Shown: positions 8,927 through 21,690 of the stretch, one piece after another | Layout: each line of letters begins with the position of its first letter | Position numbering within the stretch: position 1 is the stretch's first letter | IMG/VR virus record: IMGVR_UViG_3300050821_004390 | Coordinates: 1-21,690 of that record | Origin: a virus | Length of the DNA stretch: 21,690 bases | Direction: 5' to 3' (one strand) | The notes under the pieces: generated by a model | Told to the model about the DNA's origin: nothing | What the model saw: only the letters and a program-made list of their open reading frames with translations | The model's database searches: none | Position numbers and translations under genes: made by a program

Positions 8927-8965
8927 GAGGGCCCGGCACCGATGTTGGACTGGTGCCGGGCCCTC
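8927..8965. terminator. Strong 14-bp hairpin after the tail tube gene
   Basis: GAGGGCCCGGCACC (8927-8940) and its exact reverse complement (8952-8965) flank an 11-base loop, giving a perfect GC-rich 14-bp stem between the tail tube gene (ends 8998) and the chaperone gene (starts 8846). On the minus strand it is not followed by a U tract; on the plus strand it is followed by TTGATT. It probably acts as a partial terminator or 3' stabiliser that lowers chaperone and tape-measure expression relative to the abundant tube protein. The hairpin is seen; its function is inferred. Confidence 0.8.
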
Positions 8966-8997
8966 TTGATTCCGCCTGCACGGCGAAGGGGAAGAGG

Positions 8998-9600
8998 TCA
9001 GGCTGAGCCGGTCACCAGGGTGGCGAACGAACCGACACCAGCACCCGCCGCGATCCAGGCCGTGTTGAAGACCACCGAGTTGGCGGCCGTGATGACCTGG
9101 AGACCGTAGGCCCCGGTCGTGGTGCCGCCGTTGAGGGTGGCCGTCGCCGTGGTGGCGCCAGACAGCTCAAAGTTGGCGGTGAAGCTAACCACGTTGTTCA
9201 CCGGGTCCGAGATGTTGTAGTCGGTGATGACACAGTCACCCAGTTTGGTGACGCCAGAGCCGGTCGAGCCACCGGGACAGAGGACGAACTGGCCGTAGTT
9301 CGACTGGGTGGTCACCTGAGCGACGACGGTCATGCCCTTGTTCGGCTGCGTGCCGAGGAGGCCGGACAGCACAACGTCAGGGCCTACGGTGGCCGTCGCA
9401 TCGAAGAAGCCCTTTACCGTCATGGTGCCTTCCAGCAATCCACCGATGTAAGTCTTGGCGCCCTTGCCGAAGACGGTGGTCTCGGCGGTGCCAGCCTTCG
9501 CAGGCAGTGTCACCTCCGTGACGTAGGACGTCATGTCCCGCCAGTTGTTGCTCGCGTCGCGCAACGCGAACTGAGAGTTCTTACCGTGGACGAATGCCAT
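8998..9600 (-). CDS. Major tail (tube) protein, short paralogue
   Basis: A 200-residue protein immediately upstream of the chaperone pair. The ATG at 9600 has an AGAAGGAAG ribosome site. It starts MAFVHGKNSQF and shares with the next gene a block built on KAGTAE.T.FGKGAKTYI.GL.EGT, typical of actinophage tail tube proteins with a beta-sandwich tube fold. The C-terminal half is Thr/Gly/Ala-rich (SFTANFELSGATT). It would polymerise around the tape measure to form the tube. The hairpin just downstream suggests that its mRNA is insulated and abundant. Which of the two paralogues is the main tube subunit cannot be settled from sequence alone; the shorter one next to the chaperones fits the usual size. 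Confidence 0.88.
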   Translation of the reverse strand: MAFVHGKNSQFALRDASNNWRDMTSYVTEVTLPAKAGTAETTVFGKGAKTYIGGLLEGTMTVKGFFDATATVGPDVVLSGLLGTQPNKGMTVVAQVTTQSNYGQFVLCPGGSTGSGVTKLGDCVITDYNISDPVNNVVSFTANFELSGATTATATLNGGTTTGAYGLQVITAANSVVFNTAWIAAGAGVGSFATLVTGSA

Positions 9601-17997: not shown

Positions 17998-19881
17998 TTA
18001 CGCGGAGACCGGTTCGGCTTCGATGCGGCGCGCCTTGCCGCCCATTGAGAGACCGGTCAACGCACCCTTCTCGATGGCTTCAAACGCCCACGGTTCCCAA
18101 CGAATCCCCATGTAGGCGGTGCCTGCGGGCAACGTTGTGGATTCGGCTTTCTGCACGCCGTCGACCGACTTGAGCATCTGCGCTTCGACCGGGAATGGCC
18201 ACGTCACGATGTCGACCCACTTGCCAGCGGGTTGATCGGAGTGCTGCAGGTACACGGTACGGTCGGCGCCCGTGTTCGCGACGTAGTCCCACATCGACTT
18301 CTGCAGATCTTCGGGAGTGGCCCATTCCGAGTGTGCGTCCTTGGTGTTGGGCGAGTAGATCGGTGCGAGGGTGTAGCGGTCACCGCCGAGACCCGACTTG
18401 AAGAAGACCATCTCGGATCCGTCATCCATAACGGCCTTGGTCAGGGGCTGCTTCATGGGGTCGACGGCCTCGTTGGGGGACGAGCCCATGGAAGAAGCCA
18501 GGCCGTCGGCCGCCGTCCCGTTGGTGCCATCCTTCACGCCGTTGGTGCCGCCCGACGGGGTCGAGGCCGAGCCGCCCGCGTTCTGGCCGCCGCCTGGCGC
18601 ATTGCCGGTGCCGTCACCGGGAGTCGGCATGCCGGTGCCACCTGGCTCCTTGACGCCCGATGCATTGGAAGCCGTCATTAGTTGACCAGCTCCAGCACCG
18701 GCGACGGCGTGGGCACCGGGCCCGGCCGCCGGGGGACCTTGAGCGTTAGGCCCGGTCACACCCCAAGCCTCGGGAAGGGCATGCTCCATGCCCATGGCCT
18801 GGGCGCGCTCGATGATGTGGTTCATGGCCGCCTGGGGGTCAGGGGCCTGGCCGAGCAAGCCGATAGCAGCGTGAAGGAAGGCCTCATTCGGGATGGGGAA
18901 CGAGCCGTCGGGGAGGGCGATACCCTGCTCGGCCATCTTCATGCGCGTCTGGTTATCGAGCTGGGGCAGCTCCTTGGAGAACCAGATGTCGGGAGACTGT
19001 GAGATCAGGCCCTGGAAGATTGAGCCGTCGGCGCCGATGGCCTTGGAGACGTGATCCTCATTCGGGCCCTTGCAGACGCGGCAGACATTGCGGACGGCCA
19101 TGAAGTCATGGGAGTCGTCGTGGCCATCCCCGCCGGGCTGGCGACAGTTGCGGCAAATGTTGCGTACAGGCTGGAACTCGTGGGGGGTCGAGGTGCCCGG
19201 GATGACCGCCTTGAGGACCAAGTACGCTGCGCGCGCAACATCTTCAGGATCGTCGTCGGCTGCTTTTGCGAAGGATGTCGACAAGAGCAGGCTCTTGATG
19301 TAACCAAGCGTGCCGTCGTTCTCGTCGTCAGTGTCGCCGTCCACGTCACCGGCGCGGCCGTCCTGCGTGCGATTCTTCTCGCCGCCCTTGCCACGGTGCG
19401 TCTTGCCCTTCTGGTTGACGCCGTCGTCCTTGCTCGGGTGGTCGCCACGATTGGGGGAGCCAGAGTTGCCGACGCCAAGGTGTGGAAGCATGGCCTTGCC
19501 GAACGGGCCATTGGTGACCGCCGGTTTGCCGTTGGGCGTCTGGCGCTCGGTCGGATGCCGGGCCTCGGAGTTGCCGGACTCAGAGCCCTGTGAGACACCA
19601 CCGTCGTTATCGGGATCGTTCTGTTCGTCGTTGGTCTGGTCGTCGTCGTCGTCATCATCACCGTCTTTGCCGGTGGCCGTGTTCATCTTGCCCGGGGCGC
19701 GAGCAGGGGCCATGGCCTTGTAGACCAGACCGCGTGTGTCCAGTTCCTTGGCCAGGAGATCGTGAGCAGCGAGGTGCTCAGAGATGTCGAGGCCAGCCAA
19801 CCGGCGCCGGTCTACGAGACGGTGAAGACCAGCCTCGGTTTCGGACAAGGCTTGGTCACTGAGAGCAGAAAGGTCCGGCAT
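17998..19881 (-). CDS. Capsid maturation protease, XkdF-like, multidomain
   Basis: 627 residues from ATG 19881 (GGAGG about ten bases upstream); a GTG at 19914 would add 11 residues. Parts in order: helical N-terminus; acidic disordered tract (a run of seven Asp at about 75-82); basic linker; a tandem CxxC repeat (NICRNCRQ and NVCRVCKG, about 239-274); a segment with ALPDGSFPIPNEAFLHAAI and HIIERAQAMG (about 308-364), recurrent in actinophage proteins; Gly/Pro-rich linker (about 372-467); and a C-terminal XkdF-type serine protease domain with candidate His547 (YLQHSDQPAGKW) and Ser612 (TGLSMGGKARR). It would cleave scaffold during prohead maturation. It is far longer than HK97 gp4 (about 225). 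The usual closing motif E.S.VD.PA is missing from this frame and lies in the next gene's frame. Confidence 0.85.
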   Translation of the reverse strand: MPDLSALSDQALSETEAGLHRLVDRRRLAGLDISEHLAAHDLLAKELDTRGLVYKAMAPARAPGKMNTATGKDGDDDDDDDQTNDEQNDPDNDGGVSQGSESGNSEARHPTERQTPNGKPAVTNGPFGKAMLPHLGVGNSGSPNRGDHPSKDDGVNQKGKTHRGKGGEKNRTQDGRAGDVDGDTDDENDGTLGYIKSLLLSTSFAKAADDDPEDVARAAYLVLKAVIPGTSTPHEFQPVRNICRNCRQPGGDGHDDSHDFMAVRNVCRVCKGPNEDHVSKAIGADGSIFQGLISQSPDIWFSKELPQLDNQTRMKMAEQGIALPDGSFPIPNEAFLHAAIGLLGQAPDPQAAMNHIIERAQAMGMEHALPEAWGVTGPNAQGPPAAGPGAHAVAGAGAGQLMTASNASGVKEPGGTGMPTPGDGTGNAPGGGQNAGGSASTPSGGTNGVKDGTNGTAADGLASSMGSSPNEAVDPMKQPLTKAVMDDGSEMVFFKSGLGGDRYTLAPIYSPNTKDAHSEWATPEDLQKSMWDYVANTGADRTVYLQHSDQPAGKWVDIVTWPFPVEAQMLKSVDGVQKAESTTLPAGTAYMGIRWEPWAFEAIEKGALTGLSMGGKARRIEAEPVSA

Positions 19882-20108: not shown

Positions 20109-20150
20109 CATCCGCTTGACGAACAGGGCCGAGTGCCTTAACCTGATCTC

Positions 20151-20224
20151 CGCACGGTAGAGCAGTCCAGCAGCTCGCCTGGCTCATAACCAGGAGGTCG
20201 TGGGAGCGAAGCCCACCCGCGCCA
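20151..20224 (+). tRNA. tRNA-Met (CAT), initiator-like, with abnormal D and T loops
   Basis: A 74-base cloverleaf without encoded CCA: acceptor CGCACGG/CCGCGCC (five of seven pairs; C1-C72 and A4-C69 mismatched), T8 A9, D stem GAGC/GCTC perfect, anticodon stem CCTGG/CCAGG perfect with loop CTCATAA (anticodon CAT at 20185-20187), variable loop AGGTC, T stem GTGGG/CCCAC perfect. Segment lengths match E. coli initiator tRNA exactly. The unpaired 1-72 position and A11-T24 pair are initiator traits, though only two G-C pairs lie next to the anticodon loop rather than three. The D loop AGTCCAGCA lacks the conserved GG, and the T loop AGCGAAG lacks the conserved TT before CGA, so the normal D-T loop contact cannot form. 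It may be functional, specialised or decayed. Confidence 0.65.
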
Positions 20225-20389
20225 CGGAGAAGGGTCGATTCGGGGTGTGCGTTGCGTCCCGGCGGGGCCCCAGCATCGGGTACGAGGGATGAGCCTGGTG
20301 ACCAGCGGGAGTCCGCTACGTCATGAACCGCGTGGACTGGCTCATGAAGGGCCTCGCTGGTGGATATGGTGCCCGGCGCTTACCGGATG

Positions 20390-20584
20390 TCAGTCCCCTG
20401 CTGGCGCGGGGTGAGACATGGGATCGAGGGCCGAGGTCGTGTGCTTGTCCTCTGGGATCCGCGGGTCGTAGTCCGAGGTCACGTCAGCCCACTCGGCGAT
20501 GTCGGGATCGAAGTCATCCTGCTCGGTGGCACCGGTGGACAAGAGGTCGTCAGGCTGGACCTTGTAGTCAGGGTCGTAGGTCAC
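20390..20584 (-). CDS. Small acidic protein, unknown
   Basis: 64 residues from GTG 20584. The start overlaps the upstream stop as GTGA, and GAGGAGG lies about ten bases upstream, so this is a real coupled gene. It is strongly acidic and Tyr/Asp/Pro-rich (MTYDPDYKVQPDDLLS, then EQDDFDPDIAEWADVTSDYD) with no hydrophobic core evident, probably disordered or folding on a partner. It is the last minus-strand gene before the 508-base gap and the protease. No family recognised. Confidence 0.72.
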   Translation of the reverse strand: MTYDPDYKVQPDDLLSTGATEQDDFDPDIAEWADVTSDYDPRIPEDKHTTSALDPMSHPAPAGD

Positions 20585-21690
20585 GTCTTCGGCACCTCCT
20601 CGTGCGCCTTTTCGTACTCCTCGATTGTACCGTCCTTCTTCGGGTCATAATCCAGCGGGATGGCCGGGTAATCGTTCCCCTTCCCGCGGTGCTTCCCGTT
20701 GTCCTGCCAGTGCGTCCAGATGATGGCCTGGTACTGAGACGGTGTCATGTGGTGCTTGTCGGCACCGCGCCGGATCGCGTCTGCATATAGTGGGTACGCG
20801 CTGGCAATGTTCAGCTTCTTGTTCATGAAGCCGGACGAGAAGGCGCGATCAACCATGCGGGCCTTGGCCCCGATGCGATACCCCTGGATGGCCGAGATCA
20901 TGTGCGTGTCGACCGTGACATCGCGGCGCCCGTGGACGTCGTCGGGGTCGAGAATGTTGTTGTAGAAGGACCGCACCTTGTGACCCTTGAGAACAGTGTC
21001 GGGGGATTCGCCGCGGTAGATCTGGACGGCCTTGGCGAGGTTCTTTGCACCCATGGCGACACTGGCGCGCTTCTTCCCGCCGTCGGCCTTGGTGTCCTCG
21101 GTGGTGAGGAGTTTCGCTCGGATCTGACCCATGGTCGTCCAGGCCGCCTCGATGGGCGTCATCTCGGACAGTCGCTTGCCATTGGGGATAACCACACCCG
21201 TCTTGGCCGCCATAGGGGCGTAGTACTCCATGACGTTGCGCGGGATGTTGGTCGGAGCGTCGTCGTGGAGGTTCTTCGCCATGAACTCGGCGATGGCAAT
21301 GTTGGAGTACCAGTCCGTCTGGGGGGAGAGGGCGGCGACGATGCCAGCGCCCTGCGGGATTGAGACGTCGGCCACCTTGGCCACCTGATTGGCGGCCATG
21401 TCGTGGGCGATGTTGTACCAGTGCTGCGATGACATGGCGATGGGGTCGGGCTGAGCAGAATCCCAGAGGGTGTCGAGGTGCTCGTCCATCTTGGCCGGGG
21501 TCAGGTCGTGCATGGGAGAGTTGTCGAGGACGGTCTTCTCCATCTTGGCTTTGTAGGCCGCGTATTCAGCGGGGTCGGCTGACTGGTCCATGTGCTCAAA
21601 GGTCGTTGCCCATTGGTTGTCCTGGGATCCGCCGCGGCCGGACTTGGTGGGGACGGGGTTTTCGTTGTGGGGGGCCAGGAGGGGGGAGAG
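20581..21690 (-). CDS. C-terminal part of a head-region protein with HhH-GPD-like motifs
   Basis: The frame is open to the right edge. An ATG at 21591 would give 336 residues, but 33 further in-frame codons lie upstream with no stop, so the true start is probably outside; this could be the tail of a portal- or MuF-type protein. Numbered from 21591: GIVAALSPQTDWYSNIAIAE (about 84-103), LKGHKVRSFYNNI (Lys205), VTVDTHMISAIQG (Asp228), then a helical region (KLNIASAYPLYADAIRRGAD, HHMTPSQYQAIIWTHW). LSPQT, G.K.. and VDTH correspond in order to LS.QT.D, the G-G-K turn and VDTH of endonuclease III-type glycosylases. Such proteins occur as unassigned phage proteins. The glycosylase link is my inference. 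Confidence 0.75.
   Translation of the reverse strand, partial: LSPLLAPHNENPVPTKSGRGGSQDNQWATTFEHMDQSADPAEYAAYKAKMEKTVLDNSPMHDLTPAKMDEHLDTLWDSAQPDPIAMSSQHWYNIAHDMAANQVAKVADVSIPQGAGIVAALSPQTDWYSNIAIAEFMAKNLHDDAPTNIPRNVMEYYAPMAAKTGVVIPNGKRLSEMTPIEAAWTTMGQIRAKLLTTEDTKADGGKKRASVAMGAKNLAKAVQIYRGESPDTVLKGHKVRSFYNNILDPDDVHGRRDVTVDTHMISAIQGYRIGAKARMVDRAFSSGFMNKKLNIASAYPLYADAIRRGADKHHMTPSQYQAIIWTHWQDNGKHRGKGNDYPAIPLDYDPKKDGTIEEYEKAHEEVPKT

Follow-up and report, generated by a model that had tools for sequence, protein, structure and literature searches.

Two reviews of transfer RNA (tRNA) structure treat pseudouridine 55 (Psi55) of the T loop as universally conserved and G18 of the D loop as conserved, with no mention of phage tRNAs (PMC7912444, PMC4810234). 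The exposed face of the neighbouring pair, G19-C56, is the contact used by tRNA-binding partners (PMC4810234). Bacterial formylmethionine initiator tRNA (tRNA-fMet) and its copies in phages such as Elanor, GodonK, Myrna and CcrSC carry G18-G19 and T loops beginning TTC. Here we describe an initiator-type tRNA gene in virus record IMGVR_UViG_3300050821_004390, all 21,690 bp of which were analysed and are referred to as the window. The gene resembles tRNA-fMet and its phage copies in its CAT anticodon, A11-U24, arm lengths, variable loop AGGTC and anticodon loop CTCATAA, and shares a 1-72 mismatch with most of them. It differs from them in having A18 and the T loop AGCGAAG. We find that A18 and G55 recur together in a large class of phage tRNAs, of which the window gene is one member.

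Laboratory selections have yielded suppressor tRNAs whose D and T loops are altered, and these may include related pairs. Eukaryotic initiator tRNA retains the G18-U55 contact, unlike the window tRNA. In both, A54 faces A58, a Hoogsteen pairing of two purines (PMC7912444). Phage tRNAs that have been proposed to evade anticodon nucleases are, like the window tRNA, altered where host enzymes may read them; however, theirs are anticodon-loop mutations, whereas the window tRNA has a canonical anticodon loop, as do most aligned phage initiators, and an altered elbow (PMC10264068). Where tRNA-fMet is the target of VapC-LT2, phages are noted to avoid it in general (PMC10264068). We found no description of an A18-G55 class in the open-access literature, with subscription journals and preprints outside the search.

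An initiator-type tRNA with altered D and T loops

Infernal matched 20151-20224 on the plus strand to RF00005 across model positions 1-71 of 71, scoring 44.3 bits (E 1.3e-6) where the gathering threshold is 29 bits, and ARAGORN called a tRNA-Met(CAT) at 20151-20225. An earlier note, written from the sequence without database searches, had placed the gene at exactly the Infernal coordinates, and two of the programs it named as checks call a tRNA. It is the single tRNA of the contig. The D, anticodon and T stems contain no mismatch. As in bacterial initiators, positions 1 and 72 form no Watson-Crick pair (C.C), and A11-U24, read from the sequence, is of the R11-Y24 initiator type. The earlier description of these arms was accurate, although a second acceptor-stem mismatch, A4.C69, had been missed. 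The anticodon stem reads U29-A41, then G30-C40 and G31-C39, where bacterial tRNA-fMet has G-C at 29-41; such deviation is common in phage copies, as just 34 of 107 phage initiators with a canonical elbow have three consecutive G-C pairs (29-41, 30-40 and 31-39). Since the run of three is incomplete in the window, we term the gene initiator-type and not a proven initiator. Minimum-free-energy folding of the RNA was uninformative (z -0.3). A 6-bp inverted repeat surrounds the gene (TCTCCG, 20147-20152; CGGAGA, 20225-20230) and in a longer transcript would compete with the acceptor stem.

The D loop was said in the earlier note to lack GG. The dinucleotide is indeed absent, but only G18 is changed, to A18; G19 and its partner C56 are kept. 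The T loop stands where TTCRANY is expected. A54 and G55 replace T54 and T55, as the note had pointed out, and G60 additionally replaces Y60, with C56, R57 and A58 unchanged. The elbow is therefore built from A18-G19 and A54-G55-C56 in place of G18-G19 and T54-T55-C56: the inner contact G18-U55 and the pair U54-A58 are both replaced, and the outer pair G19-C56 is intact. The two loop changes are one matched pair, A18 with G55, which went unseen in the earlier note.

With a pattern that left the D and T loops free, we collected 113 further phage initiator tRNAs, all distinct, and none has this T loop with perfect stems; their T loops are TTC and their D loops have GG, with rare exceptions to each. 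Taken alone, this rarity would suit decay; the wider survey changed the picture.

Covariation of positions 18 and 55 in phage tRNAs

From 1,387 tRNAs called by ARAGORN, with ambiguous AGG loops set aside, we tabulated the bases at positions 18 and 55. The combination was A-G in 290 and G-U in 910, with 10 exceptions (A-U in 8, G-G in 2), an odds ratio of about 16,500 in a set of loci enriched for the A18-G55 class by pattern scans. Loci that had been picked on grounds other than their D- or T-loop sequence gave 11 A-G, 426 G-U, 1 A-U and 0 G-G. The covariation is not made by the tool, as ARAGORN would penalise a tRNA with two deviations more heavily than one with a single deviation. Two pattern scans were, moreover, independent of it. 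With G55 fixed and position 18 free, 95 of 99 good-stem tRNAs (87 contigs) had A18. The converse scan, in which A18 was fixed and any T loop allowed, recovered 77 distinct initiator tRNAs including the window's, of which 3 had TTC, 62 had TGC and 4, the window among them, had AGC; the remainder contain GTGC off the fixed register. In a set of loci with 510 phage tRNAs, 12 had a TGC T loop, and in every one of these the base before G19 was A and not G. The contigs are metagenomic, and the sequences found by pattern are non-independent samples.

The A18-G55 class spans all 20 isotypes. In 67 contigs that carry both classes, 149 tRNAs are A-G and 424 are G-U, with 3 exceptions, and the rule holds tRNA by tRNA. 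Some phage arrays are wholly of this kind: every scorable tRNA is A18-G55 in L474, L415 and L551 (17, 17 and 15, respectively), as are nearly all in L454 and L380. The window tRNA shares with the class, for example with a tRNA of Phage CBW1004C-Prop1 (MZ188970), A18 with G55, retained G19 and C56, and perfect D, anticodon and T stems. The CBW1004C-Prop1 gene (L575:2495-2570), an initiator-type tRNA, has the loops AGCCAGTA and TGCAAAT and the anticodon loop TTCATAC.

At positions 54 and 58, the ARAGORN set has T-A in 1,325 tRNAs, A-T in 27 and A-A in 15. The 27 cases hint at a second covariation, from T54-A58 to A54-T58 (ATCGTAA and similar), in L237, L242, L258, L275, L279, L291 and L380. A tree of initiator tRNAs with the loops masked gave 44 switches against 46 with shuffled labels, the roughly 60 nt available holding too little signal to count events.

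In bacteria, the G55 pattern matched a single one of 396 Actinomycetota genomes and none of 398 Pseudomonadota genomes (794 in all), and the sole match also has A18; the canonical pattern gave 10-19 matches per genome in each of four genomes. The A18 initiator pattern had no match in the 396 Actinomycetota genomes. For elongator-type tRNAs this control spans two phyla with a single D-arm geometry; for initiators it spans a single phylum. Within the phyla and pattern geometry covered, the A18-G55 class appears to belong essentially to phages.

The window's own loops also recur. The initiator tRNAs of L512, L570 and L533 have the D loop AGTCCAGTA and the T loop AGC[GA]AAG, so that AGTCCAG and AGCRAAG are common to all four. 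Five tRNAs for other amino acids also have this T loop, together with CAG in the D loop: tRNA-Thr (L410), tRNA-Asp (L360) and tRNA-Lys, -Pro and -Phe (L551). When these tRNAs were aligned with the window's, 97% of cells were paired and 17 of 22 pairs had changed on both sides, a result equalled by 0 of 500 shuffles; G19-C56 was invariant. Covarying stems around conserved abnormal loops are what the earlier note had proposed to look for in relatives. The window's proteins have no match in the L512, L533 and L570 loci, and the shared loops are therefore not simple co-inheritance of one genome. By gene names that come from sequence reading alone, the tRNA lies beside a portal or prohead protease gene in L512 and L570 and upstream of a head protein gene in L533. 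Near/far PHROG tallies around A18 initiators are too sparse to separate, and the head-gene neighbourhood is suggestive only.

Most A18-G55 tRNAs have T54 (TGC), and the window belongs to a rarer A54/G60 subtype with C before A18. That base is C in 9 of 9 tRNAs of the A54 subtype versus 87 of 271 of the T54 subtype (p 5e-5). Several A18-G55 relatives encode CCA. Judged from comparison of their sequences, these tRNAs are under selection as a class, both to form the cloverleaf and to keep positions 18 and 55 matched. Recurrence of both loops, together with the covariation, strongly supports the view, already put forward in the earlier note, that the elbow changes reflect selection for a differently built elbow and not decay.

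Genomic setting and candidate promoter

The head-tail gene block of the window lies on the minus strand, and the nearest named-phage relatives of its major head protein are Arthrobacter phages (57.6% identity). The tRNA occupies a 508-bp gap bounded by an XkdF-type protease gene and a 64-residue open reading frame (ORF), opposite to both in transcription (Table 1). The earlier note had described it as antisense inside the virion operon. Its strand is indeed opposite to that of its neighbours, but the site is intergenic, has a candidate promoter of its own and has no convincing gene opposite. The motif TTGACR-N16-18-TANNNT has one match only on either strand of the window, where 0.26 are expected in all, and this match ends 6 nt upstream of the tRNA. 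Its spacing predicts a transcription start at about 20151, where the tRNA begins.

Table 1. Positions of the tRNA, its loops, the candidate promoter and adjacent genes in the window (SD, Shine-Dalgarno sequence)
Feature	Position	Strand	Basis and remarks
Initiator-type tRNA-Met(CAT) gene with rewired elbow, without encoded CCA	20151..20224	+	Infernal, ARAGORN, compensatory changes in relatives
D loop AGTCCAGCA: G18 to A18, G19 kept	20164..20172	+	Read from sequence; AGTCCAG[CT]A D loop also in L512, L533, L570
T loop AGCGAAG (A54 G55 C56 G57 A58 A59 G60)	20205..20211	+	Read from sequence; recurs in other phages
Putative promoter TTGACG-17 nt-TAACCT, actinobacterial/sigma-70 type	20116..20144	+	Sequence match
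XkdF-type prohead protease gene	17998..19881	-	PF14550, E 1.1e-7; SD GGAGGT before ATG at 19881; bounds the gap
64-residue small ORF	20390..20584	-	ORF list; SD GAGGAGG before GTG; no Pfam match; bounds the gap on the other side
DUF7178 gene, apparently of the same accessory cassette as the tRNA	20581..21591	-	PF23802, E 7.2e-29

In the closest relative, L002, whose head protein is 76% identical, DUF7178 was not found by tblastn and the 77.6-kb record contains no tRNA. Because L002 is without both, the tRNA and DUF7178 appear to form a cassette inserted next to the XkdF protease gene. A synteny search of the closest head-gene relatives found no tRNA at the equivalent place, and relatives of the neighbouring genes were uninformative on the loops. 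Relatives of the XkdF-type protease are labelled 'RNA ligase' or 'aldolase' in PHROG and GenBank; the part they share with it, at the C-terminus, matches the Pfam XkdF protease, and the labels look wrong. Elsewhere in the window, a hairpin, GAGGGCCCGGCACC...GGTGCCGGGCCCTC, at 8927-9023 on the minus strand follows the major tail protein gene and is likely a terminator, with a sub-threshold match to sodF_sRNA.

The survey also turned up initiator tRNAs with a canonical elbow directly after the large terminase gene in Bradleyvirinae and phage PaMx74 (L082:3995-4067, L083:1656-1728, L087:3002-3074, L574:1522-1598 and L576:1503-1578), and these are unannotated in Elanor, DoCa5 and PaMx74. Permuted transfer-messenger RNA (tmRNA) matches above the gathering score were found in Stenotrophomonas phage QDWS359 (L087:3454-3748) and Caulobacter phage CcrSC (L089:918-1223), and tmRNA matches were found in the Gordonia phages GodonK (L084:1584-2112) and Phendrix (L092:583-1111).

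Proposed function, alternatives and significance

We consider it probable that the gene encodes a functional phage initiator tRNA, expressed from its own promoter, with an elbow held by A18-G55 instead of G18-Psi55. Such a tRNA would fold with A18 in the G18 slot and G55 in place of Psi55, and would retain the exposed G19-C56 face for its binding partners. In the window's subtype, the 54-58 pair would become A54-A58, along with C before A18 and G60. The RNA would be made, charged, formylated and used in initiation. It would presumably not be modified by host TruB, which needs U55, TrmA/TrmFO, which need U54, or TrmH, which needs G18, and it might also escape host tRNA-targeting factors, perhaps defence nucleases. 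We propose that, with an elbow unreadable to these enzymes and targeting factors, the phage would still have initiator tRNA at its disposal once that of the host had been depleted or inactivated. A broader proposal, which we regard as evenly balanced, is that phages have repeatedly swapped the near-universal G18-Psi55 contact for A18-G55, up to whole arrays that serve many amino acids, to give a parallel tRNA pool beyond host enzymes that read U55, U54 and G18, and maybe beyond host defences; the window gene would then be its A54/G60 initiator member.

The earlier note had offered a decoy or a locus-specific processing signal among its explanations. As a decoy, the tRNA-like RNA would titrate a host factor, for instance a nuclease of initiator tRNA like VapC, and have no role in translation. 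Some VapC enzymes cleave initiator tRNA (PMC4105405, PMC10264068), the anticodon loop CTCATAA is canonical, and an altered elbow could exclude the RNA from the normal modification pathway. Against this, the elbow occurs in complete arrays of single phages, which resemble a translation set, and several relatives encode CCA. The recurrence of A18 and G55 as a pair in every isotype shifts the balance away from a decoy or a locus-specific signal and towards a working tRNA in which one tertiary contact has been substituted; we regard the decoy as unlikely.

Decay, in which a captured host or phage initiator tRNA is losing function and the elbow changes are neutral, has several features in its favour. 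With its A4.C69 mismatch, the window copy may be less than fully functional; its Infernal score is below the 56-68 of canonical phage initiators; and it is alone in its contig and absent from the closest relative. Yet the identical two loops occur in other phages with compensated stems, the covariation of A18 and G55 is near-perfect, and the promoter match is correctly placed. Decay appears largely refuted by the recurrence of the loops, and we give it little credence.

Less probable again is a specialised tRNA used outside translation, as in staphylococci, where tRNA-Gly species serve peptidoglycan synthesis and differ from the norm at positions 18/19 and within the T loop. Those tRNAs are, like this one, altered in parts read by EF-Tu (PMC9976931). 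The staphylococcal cases are single isoacceptors in cellular genomes, whereas here all isotypes are involved, and the window tRNA keeps its initiator identity elements. An attachment site or integration remnant from a host tRNA-fMet gene can be set aside almost entirely: tRNA genes are common integration targets and clostridial contig L321 carries a partial fMet sequence, but the part usually shared with the host, from the anticodon to the 3′ end, is the altered part, the 396 Actinomycetota genomes searched lack the A18 initiator pattern, and no integrase was recognised in the window. A DNA hairpin (GCGAAGC) was dropped as an explanation, the loops being common to tRNAs of several isotypes, as was a template-switch origin, for which the window holds no donor copy.

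The main result, in our view, is the wider A18-G55 class, of which the gene in the window, a variant of the phage initiator tRNA, is one case. Annotation may be affected, as the A18-G55 tRNA of phage CBW1004C-Prop1 is unannotated. The class suggests that a supposedly universal part of tRNA is remodelled by phages. As a large natural set with a substituted pair, it provides natural experiments on what the elbow requires; it predicts phage tRNAs that would bypass TruB, TrmA/TrmFO and TrmH, and it offers a testable new reason for phages to carry tRNAs.
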